Source: a virus
Length of the DNA: 34,718 nt
IMG/VR virus record: IMGVR_UViG_3300001391_000020
Location: 1 to 34,718 of that record
Direction: 5' to 3' (one strand)
Numbering within the stretch: the stretch's first letter is position 1; the number at the start of each line of letters is the position of its first letter. This document shows positions 1 through 34,718 of this stretch, one piece after another. Made by a program: the position numbers and the translations under genes. The notes beneath the pieces were generated by a model. It saw only the letters and a list, made by a program, of their open reading frames with translations. It ran no database searches and was not told where the DNA came from.

Positions 1-37
1 GGCTACTTGTGTTAGTTTAATTAACCGCCTGCTTCGA
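1..37. repeat. Terminal direct repeat, left copy
   Basis: These 37 bases are identical to 34682-34718. The simplest reading is a circular or circularly permuted genome opened inside the early-region hairpin module. A related copy at about 690-725 differs between the shared CTACTTGTGTTAG block and the AACCGCC block, so the end-to-end identity is not just the family consensus. A true short terminal repeat cannot be excluded. Confidence 0.8.
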
Positions 38-63
38 TACTCTGAGGCAGGCATAAACGGAGG
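27..63 (+). promoter_or_regulatory. Hairpin-RBS module, copy 1
   Basis: AACC is followed by an imperfect stem (GCCTGC... with ...GCAGGC, 27-52) and a CGGAGG ribosome site just before the ATG at 68. Same module as at 715, 1090, 1456, 3276, 3509, 4765 and 34564. Inferred role: mRNA processing, stability or translation start of the next gene. Confidence 0.7.
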
Positions 64-67
64 CAAT

Positions 68-656
68 ATGATTTATTCGAACAAATCGTTCACAGCCAGG
101 GACGTTGAAATGTCCTTCGGGCATGGTTGAAGGGATTTTTACCGTCGGTGGAATTTGGGCCCGGGGGCGGGCAGAGGGTGTTTAGTACCCTCTGCGGCAG
201 ATGTAGTAGAGGGAATAAATGAGGGCTTGACCGTGAAGCTCTCGATGTCAGGAAAACCTAAAATAGTGGAGGCTTACGACCCGACTATTTATATTATTAT
301 TTCCACGGGCAACGGGTATACCCGGCGTGGGGATGGAAGTGTCGAAATTTTTAAAGATAGTGCAAGAATCCTTGCCGAAGGGAACGGCGCCGATGGTGAC
401 GCCGGCCGTATCGGTATTTGGGGGGGCGTACGTCCTTCAGGTGCTCAGTGCTAATTTTTGCATAAAAGTTACATATTCCGGAGGGGCGAATTCTAACCCT
501 GACGGGGTAAATTGGTTCCTTTTTCAAGAGGGCGATACCCTCAGATTTGTCAGCTTGAAACAGCTGGCGGATTATCTTGATACGCAGGATACCACCCCTG
601 CGTGGGCATTGACTGACGCTGAAGATTTCAATCAGCGTATTTATTTTAAGTCTTGA
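68..656 (+). pseudogene. Frame-disrupted early gene of unknown function
   Basis: An ATG at 68 has the standard module RBS and begins MIYSNKSF, like the gene at 1123, but reaches TGA at 128-130. Reading continues open in the same frame from 131 to 454, and a second open frame runs from 327 (GTG, no RBS) to 656. Neither later frame has a convincing ribosome site, whereas every neighbouring gene does. The downstream segment (around SLKQLADYLDTQ and VNWFLFQEGDTLRF) looks protein-like, so I read this as one gene of roughly 190 residues broken by small indels, several next to G-runs (near 160, 330 and 420). Base composition is richer in G+C than its neighbours. Sequencing error near the contig end is as likely as real decay. 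I do not recognise the family. Confidence 0.4.
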
Positions 657-659
657 TAT

Positions 660-696
660 AAGTAGCCTGCTCCGGGATTTCCGGGGTGGGCTACTT
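660..696 (+). promoter_or_regulatory. Strong hairpin upstream of module copy 2
   Basis: A 16-bp stem (660-675 with 681-696) closes a five-base loop, all positions Watson-Crick or G:U. A second copy with different stem bases but preserved pairing lies at 34653-34689, so the pairing is conserved rather than the sequence. It has no U-tract, so it is more likely an RNA processing or stability element than a simple terminator. Confidence 0.6.
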
Positions 697-714
697 GTGT
701 TAGATAATTTAACC

Positions 715-751
715 GCCTGCTTCGGAACATCGAAGCAGGCACGAAGGGGGT
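715..751 (+). promoter_or_regulatory. Hairpin-RBS module, copy 2
   Basis: Perfect 10-bp stem: GCCTGCTTCG (715-724), loop GAACAT, CGAAGCAGGC (731-740), then GAAGGGGGT ending five bases before the ATG at 756. This is the clearest copy of the family. Confidence 0.75.
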
Positions 752-755
752 AATT

Positions 756-1043
756 ATGATAGAAGATTATCAATCTTATGCAGTCATCACGACTGCATTT
801 AAAAATTTGGATTTTAATTTTTACCTTCCCAACCCCCTAAAGGTTTGGGAAGAAGATGCTGTCCAGGAAGAGTTGTTTCAGCTCCTGGACAGAATGGAGG
901 CTAAATTGCCTCCTGATAATAAAGACGGGTGGAACACCGTCTATAAAGAAGCTTTTGCCAGCCTCGTTAATCGGTTGGTGAATGAGTACGAGAGTATTCA
1001 CCCCGACCTGGGGATTCGCTCCAGAGGGGAAGTTACTATATAA
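756..1043 (+). CDS. Small acidic early protein, unknown
   Basis: 95 residues with no family I recognise. The start is fixed by the module RBS a few bases upstream. The product is acidic and probably mostly helical (acidic stretch around VWEEDAVQEELFQLLDRMEAKL, then YKEAFASLVNRLVNEYE), with no signal peptide or membrane segment, so a cytosolic protein is expected. It is an early gene in the same transcript as the ring nuclease that follows, in a stretch of small accessory genes where host-takeover and anti-defence proteins are typical. Any such role here is inference from position only. Confidence 0.75.
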   Translation: MIEDYQSYAVITTAFKNLDFNFYLPNPLKVWEEDAVQEELFQLLDRMEAKLPPDNKDGWNTVYKEAFASLVNRLVNEYESIHPDLGIRSRGEVTI

Positions 1044-1089
1044 GGAATGCAGTATTTTAGCCTGCAAATCGCCCATTAAGGGCTTAACC

Positions 1090-1119
1090 GCCTGCTTCGA
1101 AGCAGGCTTAAACGGAGGT
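1090..1119 (+). promoter_or_regulatory. Hairpin-RBS module, copy 3
   Basis: GCCTGCTTCGAAGCAGGC (1090-1107) is a perfect loopless palindrome, as if the GAACAT loop of copy 2 were deleted. It is followed by ACGGAGGTTTT and the ATG at 1123. Confidence 0.7.
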
Positions 1120-1122
1120 TTT

Positions 1123-1449
1123 ATGATTTATTTATGTAATGCTTTTTCTCTGTCGATGCTCAATATCGACAAGGAAATAAAACTTAAGGTGAACACCTTG
1201 ACAGTTGATGAAGTCGTCAACTTAGTAGGAAAAGGTTTCATAAGCGCAGTGGGTCACGACTCTACTGCGTCAGTGTTAACCGCCCAATTGGGCATAGACG
1301 TGGCTACCAACCGTGTCAATGTCAAGTTGAGCATGGACGACATACTAATAGTCGCTCAGTTGAATGAAAGGTTGCCGGAGGGAGTCATCTTGACAGCAGG
1401 CGACCTTATGACCCTAAAAGTGGCTTTTTTGAAAGTCACTATAATTTAA
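1123..1449 (+). CDS. DUF1874 / AcrIII-1-type viral ring nuclease (anti-CRISPR)
   Basis: 108 residues matching the STIV B116-like (DUF1874) family along its length: an N-terminal LCNAFSLSML block, the IGHDST-like block AVGHDSTASVL (42-52), NRVNVKLSMDD (63-73) and AQLNERLPEGV (78-88), ending FLKVTI. Family members include AcrIII-1, which cleaves the cyclic tetra-adenylate second messenger of type III CRISPR systems and so switches off Csx1/Csm6-type effectors. The catalytic residues described for the SIRV1 protein (His47, Arg85, Glu88) have counterparts His45, Arg83 and Glu86 with identical spacing. I chose the ATG at 1123 because it follows the module RBS; an upstream GTG at 982 would lie inside the previous gene. 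Cytosolic, early expressed. Family assignment is strong; cA4 cleavage by this copy is inferred. Confidence 0.88.
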   Translation: MIYLCNAFSLSMLNIDKEIKLKVNTLTVDEVVNLVGKGFISAVGHDSTASVLTAQLGIDVATNRVNVKLSMDDILIVAQLNERLPEGVILTAGDLMTLKVAFLKVTII

Positions 1450-1455
1450 TTAACC

Positions 1456-1491
1456 GCCTGCTCAGAACATCGGAGCAGGCACGAAGGAGGT
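1456..1491 (+). promoter_or_regulatory. Hairpin-RBS module, copy 4
   Basis: GCCTGCTC (1456-1463) pairs with GAGCAGGC (1473-1480), then GAAGGAGGT just before the ATG at 1496. The stop codon of the ring nuclease (1447-1449) lies in the lead-in sequence TTTAATTAACC of the module. Confidence 0.7.
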
Positions 1492-2147: not shown

Positions 2148-2196
2148 AAAGCCGGCTGGCTTTCCTATATTTTTAGGATTGTTAGCCGGCTTTTTT
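2148..2196 (+). terminator. Rho-independent terminator inside the early arm
   Basis: AAAGCCGGCT (2148-2157) pairs with AGCCGGCTTT (2184-2193) and a run of six T follows. The 26-base loop can form a further stem. No promoter is evident between it and the gene at 2222, so downstream expression needs read-through or antitermination. Confidence 0.75.
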
Positions 2197-2221
2197 AATT
2201 TAATTTTTAAAAGGAGATGCC

Positions 2222-3273: not shown

Positions 3274-3275
3274 CC

Positions 3276-3306
3276 GCCTACCTGTATATGGTAGGCAAAT
3301 GGAGGT
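3276..3306 (+). promoter_or_regulatory. Hairpin-RBS module, copy 5 (stem covariant)
   Basis: GCCTACC (3276-3282) pairs with GGTAGGC (3290-3296) around a seven-base loop, then AAATGGAGGTTTT before the ATG at 3310. Against the family stem GCCTGCTT/AAGCAGGC, base changes occur on both sides and preserve pairing, which argues for selection on RNA structure. Confidence 0.72.
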
Positions 3307-3501: not shown

Positions 3502-3508
3502 TTTAACC

Positions 3509-3540
3509 GCCCAAACATCAGGGTGGGCACAAAAGGAGGT
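3509..3540 (+). promoter_or_regulatory. Hairpin-RBS module, copy 6
   Basis: GCCCA (3509-3513) pairs with TGGGC (3524-3528), followed by ACAAAAGGAGGTAGT and the ATG at 3544. A third stem sequence at the same place in the module, again keeping complementarity. Confidence 0.65.
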
Positions 3541-3543
3541 AGT

Positions 3544-3924
3544 ATGGAATACTCATTAACTTTTAAACCTGACAGTGTCGCCGGTAAATTCATGGTCAAA
3601 CACAGAGATATAGGTGTTGCAGGTGTCGACAAAATATTTTTAGAGGTAGGTAGTGCATCTCTATTTCTAATCGGAAGCAAAATAATTACCTGGGACGTCC
3701 CCGTAAGGGAAAACATTACATTAGAGAGGGCTCGGGAAACTGGGCGATTTACTCATACTAATGAGATTGTAGTCCGTGTGGGAGGCGGCGTAGAAAAATT
3801 CATTGTTGAAAAAGTTGTCGCTGAAAAGCATGACAAGATAATCAATGTGTTTCTAACGTATGAAGTAGATTTTAATAAACTATATCAAGCATGGGAAGCT
3901 AAAGGTTATCCCACGACTTTTTAA
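3544..3924 (+). CDS. Early protein, paralogue B of a duplicated pair
   Basis: 126 residues, paralogous to 2222-2629 (same HRDIGVAGVDKI, ARETGRF and EKFIVEKV blocks, and LTYEVDFNKLYQAW near the end). Start at 3544 is fixed by the module RBS. The middle differs most: KIITWDVPVRENI replaces KISIFNMDAVTEKL. It lacks the acidic tail of paralogue A and ends GYPTTF. Three small genes separate the copies, so this is not a recent head-to-tail duplication. Function unknown; the paired copies imply diversification. Confidence 0.8.
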   Translation: MEYSLTFKPDSVAGKFMVKHRDIGVAGVDKIFLEVGSASLFLIGSKIITWDVPVRENITLERARETGRFTHTNEIVVRVGGGVEKFIVEKVVAEKHDKIINVFLTYEVDFNKLYQAWEAKGYPTTF

Positions 3925-4763: not shown

Positions 4764-4764
4764 C

Positions 4765-4802
4765 CGCCTGCGTCGGTACTTCAAGCAGGCATAAACGGAG
4801 GT
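4765..4802 (+). promoter_or_regulatory. Hairpin-RBS module, copy 7
   Basis: GCCTGC (4765-4770) pairs with GCAGGC (4785-4790) around a 14-base loop, then ATAAACGGAGGT. At the position where the other copies have ATG there is ATT (4806-4808); the first ATG is at 4818. Confidence 0.65.
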
Positions 4803-5018: not shown

Positions 5019-5038
5019 CCAAAAAAGATTAATTTAAC

Positions 5039-5067
5039 GTGGTATGTGCAGAAATTGCACATACCAC
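5039..5067 (+). promoter_or_regulatory. 12-bp hairpin before the 44-residue gene
   Basis: GTGGTATGTGCA (5039-5050) pairs perfectly with TGCACATACCAC (5056-5067) around GAAAT, followed by AGAGGAGAT and the ATG at 5083. The sequence is unrelated to the AACCGCC family but the placement is the same: hairpin, then RBS, then start. Confidence 0.65.
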
Positions 5068-5082
5068 ACAAGAGGAGATATT

Positions 5083-6645: not shown

Positions 6646-6912
6646 ATGTTATACTTAATTGATAGATTAGATACTAAGAATATGTTATTGAAAATACCAA
6701 GCATGGATACGATAAAACATATGCTCAATACTAAAACTCATGTGTCGCACTTGACGCATGAAAGCAATATAAATATAGGATTAAGGTTTTCAACAACGCT
6801 TAACAAGAATATCAACAGAGATTTTAAACCCCTAAATGGGGATAAAATATTGTACTTTGAAGGTGTTAAAATTTATTTAATTGATTTTAAGGAGGAAAAA
6901 TGTTCAGAATGA
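6646..6912 (+). CDS. 88-residue early protein, unknown
   Basis: RBS AAAGGAG seven bases before the ATG. Strand-rich at both ends (MLYLIDRLD; KILYFEGVKIYLIDF), and basic. No recognised family. Its stop overlaps the next start by 13 bases with AAGGAGG inside its end, so it is coupled to 6900-7091 and forms part of the recombination cluster transcript. Confidence 0.72.
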   Translation: MLYLIDRLDTKNMLLKIPSMDTIKHMLNTKTHVSHLTHESNINIGLRFSTTLNKNINRDFKPLNGDKILYFEGVKIYLIDFKEEKCSE

Positions 6913-7091
6913 CTTTAGTCTTCAATGATGAAGACAAAATACTTCTACAAAATTTTTACAGAGAGAAGTTTATCATAGGTGACACTATTACATCGGTGTC
7001 ATTTAACAAGTTTTTTACAAAGTTCGTAATTGAACAAATAAAAGAAAAAGCTTTTTGGAACCCTAAAGAGGAGAATGAAAATGACAAATGA
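6900..7091 (+). CDS. 63-residue early protein, unknown
   Basis: One short strand (MFRMTLVFND) followed by two helices (EDKILLQNFYREKF; FNKFFTKFVIEQIKEKAFW). This resembles a ribbon-helix-helix layout, though I cannot see a diagnostic motif. If so it would be a small DNA-binding protein. Coupled to both neighbours by overlap; located just before the recombination genes. Confidence 0.65.
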   Translation: MFRMTLVFNDEDKILLQNFYREKFIIGDTITSVSFNKFFTKFVIEQIKEKAFWNPKEENENDK

Positions 7092-7917
7092 AAAAGATTT
7101 ATCATTAGTAGAAGTAAAAAGCCAAGTAAACCTAATCCAGGAGGTTTTACGTGGTGTAATGAAAGAAGATGAGCATTTTGGAGTCATACCAGGCTGCAAA
7201 AAACCCACGCTATTAAAGCCTGGGGCTGAGAAACTATTACTGTTGTTCAAATTAACCCAGCGGACGGCAGTTGAAAGAACTAACCTGCCAAATGCGCATG
7301 TGGAGTTTTCAGTAACAGTTAGTCTGAACCACAATGATACCTATGTAGGAATGGGCATAGGTATATGCTCCACAATGGAAAGCAAATATCGCTACAGGAA
7401 TGAAACCCTGGGTGCCGTCCCGCCTACCTATTGGAGTGTTTTCAAGAAAGATAAGCTTGAAGCAAGCCGGATTATCGGCGAGGGAAATGTAGTAAAGAAA
7501 CAAGGAGGCAGTTGGGTGATATCACGTAGGATTGAAGCCGATAATCCGGCTGATTTCTATAACACATGCATAAAGATGGCAAAAAAAAGAGCGCTTGTAG
7601 ATGCAGTGCTCACAACAACAGCATCATCGGATTTGTTTACACAAGATCTCGATGAGATGACACCTGAAGAATTAAGTGCTATCGGTAGACCTGAGGCACT
7701 TGAGTTAAAAAATAGCACTAAATTTAAGGAGGACAAGACCACCGTGGCAAAAAAAGAAATATTGTCATGTGAAAATATGGAGGAATTGTCAGGCTTATGG
7801 GACGGCCTGGATAAGCATACAAAGGCGGACAAGGACGTCATGGGTGCTAAAAATCAAATGAAAAATAGTTTTGAAAAAGAAACTGTTAAAACAAAGGAGG
7901 AAGAAAAAGATGGATAG
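7081..7917 (+). CDS. Conserved phage recombination-cluster protein (annealase candidate)
   Basis: 278 residues. Start at 7081 chosen because AAAGAGGAG lies seven bases upstream; the ATG at 7075 is too close. The N-terminal block VMKEDEHFGVIPGCKKPTLL, continuing into KPGAEKLLLLFKL, and the block MAKKRALVDAVLTTTASSDLFTQDL are features I recall in conserved phage proteins next to exonuclease and SSB genes. The C-terminus is charged and probably disordered (KETVKTKEEEKDG). Position before a Cas4/YqaJ-like nuclease and SSB suggests a single-strand annealing or related recombination role. That function comes from context, not from a recognised RecT, Erf or Sak motif. Confidence 0.7.
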   Translation: MTNEKDLSLVEVKSQVNLIQEVLRGVMKEDEHFGVIPGCKKPTLLKPGAEKLLLLFKLTQRTAVERTNLPNAHVEFSVTVSLNHNDTYVGMGIGICSTMESKYRYRNETLGAVPPTYWSVFKKDKLEASRIIGEGNVVKKQGGSWVISRRIEADNPADFYNTCIKMAKKRALVDAVLTTTASSDLFTQDLDEMTPEELSAIGRPEALELKNSTKFKEDKTTVAKKEILSCENMEELSGLWDGLDKHTKADKDVMGAKNQMKNSFEKETVKTKEEEKDG

Positions 7918-12289: not shown

Positions 12290-12859
12290 TCAGAAATTAT
12301 ATTTGATTTTTAAGCCTATAAAATTAATAGGCTCTTGGTTAATAAACAATGTGTCATTTACGCTGAAAGAAAATCCTTTTATCTGCATGAACCCATAGTT
12401 AAAGCCCATTAACAATCCTTGCCTTGTGCCAACCTTGCTACTGATATATCCGTAACTAAATGACAATGTCTTAACACTGTCGAAGCTTAGCCAGGTTTTG
12501 GAATAGGGTAATTCATTGAAATATAGACTGCCCTGTCCTGTCTTAGTGTCTAAGAAGGCTGTTACCATAGTTTTACCTTTATATGCAGGTACCTTCCCTG
12601 TAGTCAATATCTTGATATTGTCTTTTTTTAACGTAGTGTTAAGGGGCGTTTTTAGCCTCTTAACATACACGTTTTTGGGTATATACCTGATTTTTACACT
12701 ATTAAAGGTCTTATATTTGCTCCTTAACTCACTTTTTATTTTAGTCAAATTCTTAATGGGAGGTTGCATCATCGTAGATGTGTTATTCCACTTCAAGAAA
12801 ACTGCTACTAAAATAGCTACAATAATAATAAATACAATATCTAATATTCTATTTTCCAT
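12290..12859 (-). CDS. Membrane-anchored protein with a beta-rich C-terminal domain
   Basis: 189 residues from the ATG at 12859 (AAAGGAATAG upstream); an earlier in-frame ATG at 12877 lacks a site. One N-terminal membrane helix (LDIVFIIIVAILVAVFL, about 6-22) is followed by a basic linker and an aromatic-rich region of alternating strands (LMGFNYGFMQIKGFSFSVND...) ending in KYNF. A C-terminal phenylalanine after such strands is typical of outer-membrane beta proteins, so an envelope-spanning role in lysis or superinfection is possible. No family recognised. Confidence 0.65.
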   Translation of the reverse strand: MENRILDIVFIIIVAILVAVFLKWNNTSTMMQPPIKNLTKIKSELRSKYKTFNSVKIRYIPKNVYVKRLKTPLNTTLKKDNIKILTTGKVPAYKGKTMVTAFLDTKTGQGSLYFNELPYSKTWLSFDSVKTLSFSYGYISSKVGTRQGLLMGFNYGFMQIKGFSFSVNDTLFINQEPINFIGLKIKYNF

Positions 12860-13076
12860 TACTATTCCTTTTGACAATATTGTTGACTGTCTTGCTTATA
12901 TAACTACCCACTGTGCCACCCCATATTACTTCAAGAAAATTCATTATGTTAGGTGGCATATCTTGTTTAGCAAAAAACACATAATAAACTAAAATTGCAA
13001 TAGAAACAATAAAGGTTCCTGATATTAATATAATAGTTTCTTCTATGTTAGAATTAAAGTCTAAGTATTTATTCAT
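12849..13076 (-). CDS. Two-helix membrane protein, holin candidate
   Basis: 75 residues. A first membrane helix (TIILISGTFIVSIAILVYYVFF, about 14-35), a short turn with prolines (PPNIMNFL), then a weaker second helix (VIWGGTVGSYISKTV) and a basic tail (VKRNSNGK). Size, topology and the charged C-terminus fit phage holins. Coupled to the upstream gene by an ATGA overlap and overlapping the next gene by 11 bases. Confidence 0.65.
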   Translation of the reverse strand: MNKYLDFNSNIEETIILISGTFIVSIAILVYYVFFAKQDMPPNIMNFLEVIWGGTVGSYISKTVNNIVKRNSNGK

Positions 13077-27093: not shown

Positions 27094-28659
27094 TCACCCC
27101 CCTTGCGGTGCCGTAGATCTCGCCGTTTTTTTAGGTGGTTCCACAGGCTGAGGCGGATTCATTTTTATTTCCTCTTCTTTCTTTAATATAGCTCTTTTGA
27201 TTTGTTCTTTGTATGGTATAGGCAAAACATCTACCAACAATATCGGTGGGATAATACCCTTATCGGATAAATCAAACATAATTTGAATATTTTCGTTGTT
27301 CGAAATAGGACTTGATGTATGGGCGAATATTTCTATCCTATATGGTGCTGAATATTGAGATAGAATAAAAGTTCTATCATTATTGTCTGTTATATACGTT
27401 ACGGTATCATTGGCTTGAAATAATTGCCCAGTGTAAGTAAAGATAGCTTCTAATTGAGCCTCTATAATATGTGCTGTTTTCTTGAGTGGTGCTGCACCAA
27501 ACTGTGCAAGGATACCCGCATACCCCTTGCTTCTAACATTTTTAGCAGAATGCCCCATCATTATTTCATTAACTGAAGTTATTTTTTCAAGCGTTTCAGT
27601 CAAAACATTCAATTCGCTGAATACACTTGGCAAATCTAATCTTGGTAGATATGGTTCCACCTTAGTATTTTGACCCTCTACAATAAAGAGTCCATTAGGT
27701 TTCCTTAATTCCTTTATATCCTTTTGAGCCTCTTCTTTCATAACTTGAGCGCCCTGTAATATCAATGGGGGGTGGATAAGTAATTCACTTGCTCCTTCTA
27801 TCTCATTCATTAATTTATTTTGTTTATTCTGGATATTCCCTATCATTTCTATCAGAGATAAACCCCATATGTTATTAATTACAGGGTATGGGCTAATGGC
27901 AAAAAAGGAATGTCTGCGTACACCCATCGGAGTGTTACGCAATACCTTTCCTGCCGCTATAATGGCTCTGTACCACTGTGTACCTTCAAAGTACCATAGT
28001 TCCCTGACTGGATATACGGGCGCTCCTGCATTGGGTATATGAGAATTACTGGACAGCTTATGGATAGTTCCTAACGTCCCTTTGGTTCCGTATGGTGCGC
28101 CCGATAATTTTATTCCTAAAGTACTTTTAAACTCATCATCTTGCCCTTTGAATAATTTGAGCGCTTGGGGAAATTGATCCTTTAATGCTCTTTCTGTAAA
28201 CATTGTTTCATGGGCAAAAACTTGATATTTATCATCGATAGGCAATCCTTCATATAGAAAACCTATTGACTTAGGATTGATATAGACATATTCAACACTG
28301 TTGTTTTTCCATATTACCTTTACAAAAGATGTGCCATCTTTGAGAGAGTTAAGCACAATCTCAGCCATTTTTACATCTAATCTATTGTCAAAAAAATTAG
28401 CCTTAACTACATCTACTATCTTTGCCAGTATCATAGCATCTTTGTCTTGTAATGGCGCACTGGTTTGGCTATCTAATATTATATTTTCGGGTGAAAATAT
28501 TAAACTATTGACACTGCTAAGTTCACCAAAGACAGTTTTAAAAACATTATTGTCATTATCAGTGTAATACATGCTTTGATAATAGTCGTATTTTGAGCGT
28601 CTCTTATCAACATTAAAAAAACATTGCTTAGTCAGTTTTAATATTTCTTCAGGTTTCAT
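27094..28659 (-). CDS. Portal protein
   Basis: 521 residues, a typical podovirus portal length. The segment NIQNKQNKLMNEIEGASELL, followed by IHPPLILQGAQ and later VNEIMMGHSAKNVRSKGYAG, continuing to a long helix (KKTAHIIEAQLEAIFTYTGQL), is characteristic of portal wing and crown regions. The C-terminus is proline-rich (NPPQPVEPPKKTARS). Twelve copies would form the head vertex where terminase docks. Its ATG overlaps the upstream stop (ATGA). It is the first large gene of the head cluster. Confidence 0.85.
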   Translation of the reverse strand: MKPEEILKLTKQCFFNVDKRRSKYDYYQSMYYTDNDNNVFKTVFGELSSVNSLIFSPENIILDSQTSAPLQDKDAMILAKIVDVVKANFFDNRLDVKMAEIVLNSLKDGTSFVKVIWKNNSVEYVYINPKSIGFLYEGLPIDDKYQVFAHETMFTERALKDQFPQALKLFKGQDDEFKSTLGIKLSGAPYGTKGTLGTIHKLSSNSHIPNAGAPVYPVRELWYFEGTQWYRAIIAAGKVLRNTPMGVRRHSFFAISPYPVINNIWGLSLIEMIGNIQNKQNKLMNEIEGASELLIHPPLILQGAQVMKEEAQKDIKELRKPNGLFIVEGQNTKVEPYLPRLDLPSVFSELNVLTETLEKITSVNEIMMGHSAKNVRSKGYAGILAQFGAAPLKKTAHIIEAQLEAIFTYTGQLFQANDTVTYITDNNDRTFILSQYSAPYRIEIFAHTSSPISNNENIQIMFDLSDKGIIPPILLVDVLPIPYKEQIKRAILKKEEEIKMNPPQPVEPPKKTARSTAPQGG

Positions 28660-29742: not shown

Positions 29743-29771
29743 TTGACATATTTAATACAAAAATATATAAT
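29743..29771 (+). promoter_or_regulatory. Replication-arm sigma-70 promoter
   Basis: TTGACA (29743-29748), 17-base spacer, TATAAT (29766-29771): a perfect consensus. Back to back with the late promoter, with only 11 bases between the two -35 boxes, which together form the inverted repeat ATGTCAA/TTGACAT. One regulator bound here would affect both. Confidence 0.88.
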
Positions 29772-33322: not shown

Positions 33323-34358
33323 CCACCTATACTCATAAACTAACAGAATATAGCCTTAAAGTCTTTTAAAGGTTTTACCCTTAACCATTACCTTAATTAT
33401 GTATTATAAGATGAATTTAAGGGTGTACTGTTCCATTTTGGGGTACATTAACTTATATACAATGTGCAAAGTTAAATTAAATCGTAGATTAGACTTGATT
33501 GGGGGGAGAGAGTGATGCAACCCTATATAAGCCTTGTTGACTTGCCATTTTATCCCTGACGACTTATAACTTTTGGATATTTCGCTATAAAGTATAAAAT
33601 ATAAAAGTGGCAAATAAATACTTGCAGCTTCAATTTTGTTCAATACTTTTTTTGTATAATTCTGATGTAAAACAATATTGTCAGAATTACGGTGTTACAT
33701 ATGTTACAATAAAATAGATACATCATTATTTATTTATTATTTATTATTCTTAATTATTCTTAATTTTTATTAATTTTTATTAATTATTGGGATTATTTTT
33801 CTGTATAATGGCATGAAATTTGAATAAATTACCCAACTACATTTATCGGGAAAATCAAAGGTAAAATCGAATGTAAAGGATTGAATATAAAGGAATAAAT
33901 AGCTATGTTATGATAAAATAAAGGAATATAGGCATAAATAGACAATAATAGCACGTAAGTCATTGATTTTATTAAGAAATATTACCTCCCATCTTCCCTT
34001 TTGTCAGAATGACAAAATAATAAATCTGTACTATCAATTTTTCTGAGGTTTCGGATATATAACTACATGTATGCGTATAAGCTCCCACGTGCCTGCCTGC
34101 GTGCCTGCTTGCCTACCTGCCTGCTTACCTACCTGCTTCTATATATATATACACAAGAAGGAACAAAGCAATATAAGATTATATATTATATATATGTATA
34201 TATATATATATTTTAGGTATATATATATATATTCTTATATATATAATATAAGTGCAAGAATTGTGCCGTTATTGGATATGTAACATATATTTGCTATACG
34301 GAACACAAAAAAAAGATAAAAATAATTCGTATTTTTCTTAAAAAAACAAAGAAAAGAC
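33323..34358. other. AT-rich non-coding region
   Basis: I see no supported gene here. It holds a weak hairpin just after the loader gene (33353-33375). An 8-bp inverted repeat AATTCTGA/TCAGAATT lies at 33658-33665 and 33681-33688, and TTGCCA...TTTTAT sequences at 33541 and 33603 form an imperfect inverted repeat. There are AT-rich short repeats (33731-33787), a tetranucleotide TGCC/TACC tract (34090-34138) and (TA)n sequence (34140-34250). Candidate roles: replication, packaging or transcription control. Confidence 0.7.
34090..34138 (+). repeat. Degenerate tetranucleotide tract
   Basis: About twelve units of TGCC, TGCG, TGCT or TACC, followed by (TA)n. A GC-bearing block in otherwise AT-rich non-coding DNA; the six-frame reading of 70 codons across it is a by-product of the repeat. 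Confidence 0.8.
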
Positions 34359-34387
34359 TTGACAAGCATATATAGAAATGATATAGT
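34359..34387 (+). promoter_or_regulatory. Early-arm sigma-70 promoter
   Basis: TTGACA (34359-34364), 17-base spacer, TATAGT (34382-34387). It would start near 34394 and run through the leader RNA, the 16-residue gene and, across the circle junction, the whole early arm. Confidence 0.85.
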
Positions 34388-34418
34388 ATACATATCAAGT
34401 GAGATTGTATCGCTTGCA

Positions 34419-34553
34419 AGTGATTTGCCTGACCCGTGTATGCTTATCGAAGGGGGTTAGGCGTAACATCGGCGTCCTCTCGCACAAAACAGCCGTGCGA
34501 GCACTGATGGAACCTATCGTCATTAGGTTGACAGAAAGGTCAGGCAAATCGCT
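34419..34553 (+). ncRNA. Predicted four-way-junction leader RNA
   Basis: A closing stem of 16 pairs (34419-34434 with 34538-34553, one G:U) encloses three arms: TATGCT/GGCGTA (34439-34444, 34460-34465), a long arm CATCGG/CTGATG (34467-34472, 34504-34509) topped by CTCGCAC/GTGCGAG (34479-34485, 34495-34501), and AACCTA/TAGGTT (34511-34516, 34524-34529). The linker GACAGAAA joins back to the closing stem. An alternative stem ATCGCTT/AAGTGAT (34409-34424) would compete with it. It lies just behind the early promoter. No known RNA family recognised. Confidence 0.7.
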
Positions 34554-34563
34554 ATTATGAACC

Positions 34564-34599
34564 GCCTGCTCGGAACATCGAAGCAGGCTTAAAAGGAGG
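34564..34599 (+). promoter_or_regulatory. Hairpin-RBS module, copy 8
   Basis: GCCTGCT (34564-34570) pairs with AGCAGGC (34582-34588), with the GAACAT loop core kept, then AAAAGGAGGTTTT and the ATG at 34604. Confidence 0.72.
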
Positions 34600-34603
34600 T
34601 TTT

Positions 34604-34654
34604 ATGAAAGAATTTATAAAATGGCTTGAGAAAGAGTTTAACCTCAAGAAATGA
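34604..34654 (+). CDS. 16-residue leader peptide
   Basis: MKEFIKWLEKEFNLKK follows one of the best ribosome sites in the genome (AAAAGGAGG). Amphipathic helix by composition. It is the first reading frame behind the early promoter and leader RNA, and ends where the second strong hairpin (34653-34689) begins. It could be a functional micropeptide or a leader peptide that couples translation to that hairpin. Confidence 0.5.
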   Translation: MKEFIKWLEKEFNLKK

Positions 34655-34689
34655 GTGGCCTGCCTCGGAAATCCCGGGGTGGGCTACTT
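34653..34689 (+). promoter_or_regulatory. Strong hairpin, second copy
   Basis: A 16-bp stem (34653-34668 with 34674-34689) with several G:U pairs, matching the hairpin at 660-696 but with compensating stem changes. It is followed by the shared CTACTTGTGTTAG sequence and module copy 1 across the circle junction. Confidence 0.6.
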
Positions 34690-34718
34690 GTGTTAGTTTA
34701 ATTAACCGCCTGCTTCGA
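34682..34718. repeat. Terminal direct repeat, right copy
   Basis: Identical to bases 1-37; joining the two ends restores a complete hairpin-RBS module in front of the frame that begins at 68. Confidence 0.8.

Follow-up and report, generated by a model that had tools for sequence, protein, structure and literature searches.

Why should the early transcript of a DNA phage open with a long and elaborately folded RNA? The question is raised by the right end of a viral record of 34,718 nucleotides (IMGVR_UViG_3300001391_000020; the whole of this stretch is called the window here). A reading made from the letters of the DNA alone (the sequence-only reading) had pointed there to an undescribed structured leader behind an early promoter and had considered an antitermination RNA, a riboswitch-like sensor or a stable small RNA. 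The computational analysis described here supports a structured leader RNA at this place, as predicted by folding, and indicates that it is one part of an early transcript folded almost throughout rather than an isolated RNA.

The leader RNA and its place in the genome

Identical stretches of 37 bases occupy both ends of the record and similar repeat units lie near them; the genome is probably a circle of 34,681 bp. Since the end overlap makes the record circular, the leader at the right end continues into the left-end genes, and the claim that it lies upstream of the early operon holds on this condition, resting as it does on the 37-bp overlap. The structural genes (terminase, major head protein and a portal-like gene) are encoded on the - strand, recombination genes occupy 7.1-9.2 kb, and recombination and methyltransferase genes together reach 9.2 kb. 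The position of the first large gene (69-656) has a frameshifted look, with a start of 20 codons at 69 followed by open reading frames in other frames (155-454 and 327-656); G-runs within it could reflect sequencing or assembly errors.

As the sequence-only reading had claimed, a strong sigma-70 promoter lies directly upstream of the leader (Table 1). Outside the late arm only two + strand promoters match at 11 or more of 12 positions, namely this one (34359-34387) and the one at 29743-29771, which stands back to back with a - strand promoter at 29731-29704, both matching at 12 of 12; judged from first-gene coordinates, the leaders of this pair can measure no more than some tens of bases. The leader fold begins about 7 nt past the early promoter. 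It forms the front of the early transcript, which crosses the circular junction and has its predicted start near 34394, about 2 nt from the 5'-terminal hairpin. Further upstream, in the 1-kb intergenic region before the promoter, tandem repeats of the CCTGCCTGC type and, behind them, long AT palindromes (34080-34253) make a possible replication origin.

The four-way junction with three arms claimed for 34394-34560 was recovered: together with a separate 5' hairpin it constitutes both the minimum-energy and the centroid fold. The minimum free energy is -65.9 kcal/mol (z -5.2), a value matched in none of 600 fresh shuffles, and a helix of at least 16 pairs arose in none of 1000 shuffles of the leader. 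The closing stem had been called perfect; it does have 16 pairs, of which 15 are Watson-Crick and one is G-U, and it is the sole 16-pair long-range helix on the + strand of the genome. The antisense of the leader folds more weakly (-53.3), and the junction is still predicted up to about 70 C. Neither a terminator nor a start codon with a good Shine-Dalgarno sequence (SD) was found inside the leader; a 17-codon open reading frame at 34507-34560 has no good ribosome-binding site.

Table 1. Coordinates of the features discussed (positions in the window unless another contig is named)
Feature	Position	Strand	Details
Sigma-70-type promoter	34359-34387	+	TTGACA-17-TATAGT, TG before -10; 11/12 match
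Separate 5'-terminal hairpin	34396-34416	+	7 pairs, 34396-34402/34410-34416; pair probability 0.97
Four-way junction	34419-34553	+	closed by helix 34419-34434/34538-34553
Arm 1 of junction	34439-34465	+	helix 34439-34448/34455-34465
Arm 2 of junction	34467-34509	+	helix 34467-34485/34495-34509
Arm 3 of junction	34511-34529	+	helix 34511-34516/34524-34529
Predicted metastable co-transcriptional hairpin	34427-34462	+	34427-34435/34454-34462, prefix folding
Hairpin + SD unit, first copy	34562-34599	+	before 16-codon ORF 34604-34654
Long hairpin spanning circular junction	34651-34691	+	18 pairs; near-copy at 653-703
Hairpin + SD unit	25-63	+	
Long hairpin	653-703	+	24 pairs with G-U, loop 3
Hairpin + SD unit	713-750	+	
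95-codon ORF built of consecutive hairpins	756-1043	+	directly before AcrIII-1; codon-shuffle z -7.6 and -9.0 in two runs
Hairpin + SD unit of AcrIII-1 gene	1088-1118	+	
Putative AcrIII-1 / STIV_B116-like (DUF1874) ring nuclease, anti-type III CRISPR	1123-1449	+	PF08960, E 2e-22
Hairpin + SD unit	1454-1490	+	
Intrinsic terminator within early arm	2148-2199	+	SD 11-17 nt behind
Hairpin + SD unit	3274-3305	+	compensatory stem change G-C to A-U
Hairpin + SD unit, diverged	3507-3539	+	
Hairpin + SD unit	4764-4801	+	
Hairpin + SD unit	5037-5078	+	entirely different 12-pair stem, same place
Small ORFs of consecutive long hairpins beside AcrIII-1, other contigs	L238 9600-9878; L240 5268-5945; L247 9515-9847, 10488-10829		

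Is this a known RNA? No Rfam family matched in the window at gathering score, and another Rfam scan returned one chance match (10.5 bits against a gathering score of 41), in agreement with the description of the leader as undescribed. Identity as tRNA or tmRNA was rejected as ARAGORN gave no match. Homologues of the leader were found neither in 29 other records nor in 46 loci (0.84 Mb; one chance match, E 4.5), overall about 1 Mb of DNA from related phages; exact DNA patterns yielded no relatives of the leader and, for the hairpin-SD unit described below, eight matches, all unrelated. Protein scans with the helicase loader, the terminase and an early paralogous family detected no close relative, and terminase alignments produced distant cousins only, from all of which the leader is absent. 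The closest relative found is a 34.6-kb contig in a Desulfurellales metagenome-assembled genome (MAG) (JALVTR010000085.1), with 15 structural-arm proteins in common at about 21-42% identity, which may hint at the host range. A comparison of relatives of this MAG with the phage's first 12 kb, in which CRISPR spacers would count, gave no convincing host.

Does the leader switch?

The sequence-only reading had proposed that a competing stem at 34409-34424 could open the closing helix in a switch-like manner. The near-palindrome exists, but its pair probability is 1.5e-7, and forcing the stem yields -55.1 instead of -65.9 kcal/mol, a cost of about 11 kcal/mol. Riboswitch-like opening by this stem was therefore rejected. 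A different rearrangement is predicted during transcription. In prefix folding, from which the register of this hairpin derives, transcripts ending between about 34467 and 34539 have the 5' strand GCCUGACCC (34427-34435) in a helix with 34454-34462, and the final junction wins only once GGUCAGGC, the 34538-34553 strand, is made. Displacement of the early hairpin is thus a predicted refolding step that is silent on any ligand.

Such refolding towards the closing helix, the compactness of the junction and the lack of a terminator or well-placed start codon are what would be expected if the leader were an autonomous regulator, be it a ligand sensor, a protein-binding autoregulatory site or the source of a stable small RNA. 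On the other hand, neither an Rfam match nor a homologue turned up in the searches, the first SD is not sequestered by the junction and the competing stem is negligible, and we regard autonomous regulation as quite improbable.

Transcription beyond the early terminator

An antitermination role was suggested by the layout of the early arm. The terminator claimed at 2148-2196 is present and strong, the next SD follows directly behind it, and no + strand promoter matching at 10 or more of 12 positions was found between 1 and 9800, in line with the sequence-only reading, which saw no promoter after the terminator; the genes beyond would therefore need read-through or a weak promoter. It could be imagined that the leader binds the emerging RNA polymerase as a put-like processive antiterminator and carries it past the terminator into the genes up to 9.2 kb. 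The put RNAs of phage HK022, found near early promoters, are about 70 nt long with two stem-loops; they bind the zinc-binding domain of the beta' subunit of RNA polymerase, and their effect extends over 10 kb or more (PMC9378689). In common with them, the leader is a structured and presumably cis-acting RNA that begins close behind an early phage promoter (promoter 34359-34387, first pairs at 34396) and is followed by terminators. Its predicted form, however, is not that of a two-stem RNA of about 70 nt but of a 5' hairpin followed by a four-way junction, together about 160 nt. Moreover, the terminator may merely leak, promoters matching at 9 of 12 positions could serve the downstream genes, and antitermination leaves hairpins inside genes unexplained. 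Altogether a put-like function appears unlikely.

Hairpins before ribosome-binding sites

The leader is followed by further structure. In front of many early genes stands a hairpin of the type CCGCCUGC...GCAGGC that ends 4-7 nt before the SD (Table 1). Copies of this hairpin-SD unit carry changes on both sides of the stem (G-C to A-U, U-A to C-G). This covariation within the genome supports RNA hairpins of this kind in general; the leader itself is not probed by it. A similar layout is known from cluster K mycobacteriophages, in which the conserved 13-bp sequence GGGATAGGAGCCC of the SAS/ESAS repeats is accompanied by upstream 17-bp inverted repeats (PMC3203893). Both systems place repeated inverted repeats directly before ribosome-binding sites, those of non-structural genes in the case of SAS. 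Here, however, the stem is variable, the SD is no fixed 13-mer, and host and sequence are unrelated; identity of the hairpin-SD units with SAS/ESAS was thus rejected, as the sequences differ and the layout alone is in common.

The early mRNA of phage T7 is polycistronic, made from host promoters, and carries stem-loops with RNase III sites between its genes, of which gene 0.3 encodes a counter-defence protein. By analogy, an early polycistronic message with intergenic stem-loops and a counter-defence gene may be common to T7 and the phage studied here, and the hairpins could be processing or translation signals, with the long helices as RNase III-type cleavage sites and the pre-SD hairpins setting or protecting processed 5' ends roughly as in T7. 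The distance of 4-7 nt, the compensatory changes, the one wholly different stem in an equivalent place and helices of 16, 18 and 24 pairs at the transcript front would agree with such a role. A processing role, though, leaves the folding excess within coding regions unexplained, an excess without counterpart in T7, the coding regions of which are not unusually folded in an equivalent test. We consider processing signals a rather unlikely explanation of the whole.

Folding throughout the early transcript

How far does the folding reach? On the + strand of the first 2.5 kb, 23 hairpins with 7 or more pairs were counted where 4.6 (sd 1.7) are expected. The count for the - strand is 11. Of the hairpins in this stretch only 8 are left once G-U pairs are disallowed. 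The excess on the transcribed strand and its dependence on G-U pairs indicate structure at the RNA level. Among 736 segments of 2.4 kb each, taken from 92 sequences for the hairpin comparison, the early segment ranks first. Folding z values of the + strand, calculated in 120-nt steps and averaged over blocks of 1.2 kb, start at -3.2 and rise to -2.2 and then -1.7 in the next two; most of the late arm (9.6-28 kb) lies near 0. The excess goes beyond codon choice, as early genes compared with synonymous codon shuffles have a mean z of -3.6 in sense and -2.2 in antisense direction (paired p=0.0009), compared with -1.6 and -1.0 for genes elsewhere (early versus other, p=0.007). In a shorter-window test the ORFs of T7 have a mean of -0.5 and those of lambda a mean of -1.0.

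Two - strand genes of the late arm (12290-12877 and 27094-28659) also fold strongly in sense direction beyond codon shuffles, so that the excess extends beyond the early arm. Two early paralogues of an unknown family (2222-2629 and 3544-3924), the proteins of which are 64% identical, differ in that the first is strongly structured and the second is not.

Could hairpins have arisen by mutation, through template switching at quasi-palindromes, or by chance? Events of this kind are a source of hairpins where repeats abound and the sequence changes fast, and the upstream stretch at 34080-34253 is repetitive. They would, however, produce equal numbers of Watson-Crick hairpins on both strands, whereas G-U pairs and the transcribed strand dominate, and the compensatory changes of the hairpin-SD units speak against them as well. 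An origin apart from RNA function is therefore very improbable.

Genome-scale ordered RNA structure has been described for RNA viruses. The term is used for example in PMC6563262, and coding regions structured throughout are what the two cases have in common; here the genome is that of a DNA phage and the structure is found mainly in the early operon.

The AcrIII-1 gene and folding of AcrIII-1 mRNAs

Proteins of the AcrIII-1 family destroy cyclic tetra-adenylate and thereby block type III CRISPR signalling. By family match (PF08960/DUF1874, the family of SIRV1 gp29) the product of the gene at 1123-1449 is an AcrIII-1 ring nuclease; it has relatives of solved structure (PDB 2j6b, 2x4i and 6scf) and keeps the GH..TA and RLPEG motifs with the conserved His and the RLPEG Glu, and is a putative cyclic tetra-adenylate nuclease. 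The resemblance concerns the protein context and not the leader RNA. Other carriers of AcrIII-1 are several of the terminase cousins as well as Hydrogenobaculum phage 1 and Thermoanaerobacterium phage THSA-485A.

A first survey suggested that the AcrIII-1 coding RNAs of tailed phages are unusually folded, an excess absent from the AcrIII-1 genes of crenarchaeal viruses and two cyanophages. In 12 held-out contigs AcrIII-1 had a mean z of -3.5 versus -1.4 for 95 neighbouring ORFs (p=0.003, Mann-Whitney; p=0.005, paired), on sequences partly related by descent and with few shuffles. For 17 pooled loci, a set that takes in the phages that suggested the idea, the values were -3.9 for AcrIII-1, -2.1 for same-strand and -0.5 for opposite-strand neighbours, with distant small ORFs near background (-1.2 and -0.8); the p values of this comparison were 5e-7 and 0.002. 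ORFs flanking AcrIII-1 in three of the contigs (L238, L240 and L247) reach codon-shuffle z values of about -6 to -11, and small ORFs made of consecutive long hairpins lie beside the gene (Table 1). A report linking folding with AcrIII-1 was not found in the open literature searched, the coverage of which was partial.

Arrays of about eight different perfect hairpins each, with short loops and within some hundreds of bases that look non-coding, were seen in the cousin IMGVR_UViG_3300037010_001706 (1200-1440 and 6840-7180) and in contig L204. As the arrays of the former have no detected AcrIII-1 nearby and two late genes of the present phage are structured, the link between folding and AcrIII-1 is not exclusive.

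A protective leader of a counter-defence mRNA?

What, then, might the leader do? Tentatively, and at somewhat less than an even chance, we favour the explanation that it serves as a protective leader at the 5' end of a structured mRNA for counter-defence. The first transcript to be made would open with the 5'-terminal hairpin and the four-way junction, and the body of the mRNA would be folded too, with hairpins before many ribosome-binding sites and within coding regions. Such folding may shield the early counter-defence mRNA in cis until its products, including AcrIII-1, have accumulated. The leader could act in a cap-like manner by blocking attack on the 5' end, and the folded body could leave little single-stranded RNA open to RNA-guided type III CRISPR complexes and to RNases of the host. 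Protection is favoured since it covers the leader, the hairpins in coding regions and the link to AcrIII-1 together, of which antitermination, processing and a ligand switch each cover a part. The fold and its rarity, the bias towards the transcript strand, the codon-independent excess in genes, the AcrIII-1 gene and a similar excess in that gene of other tailed phages are computed; the transcription start, protection, and which defence is countered, we infer.

A broader proposition, that tailed phages fold the mRNAs of their AcrIII-1 early operons, from a junction leader through the coding regions, against RNA-guided or RNA-cutting defences that act before the anti-CRISPR protein is made, is more doubtful. 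If it were true, counter-defence would be encoded in mRNA structure. By itself a junction leader of about 160 nt outside Rfam would be of moderate interest; more unusual is an early mRNA of a DNA phage that is folded throughout beyond the requirements of its proteins, together with the recurrent association with AcrIII-1 in other tailed phages. Should protection be confirmed, the folding signal might serve to search for more counter-defence genes, and if the protection were against type III CRISPR or RNases, mRNA folding would constitute a second, protein-free layer of counter-defence.
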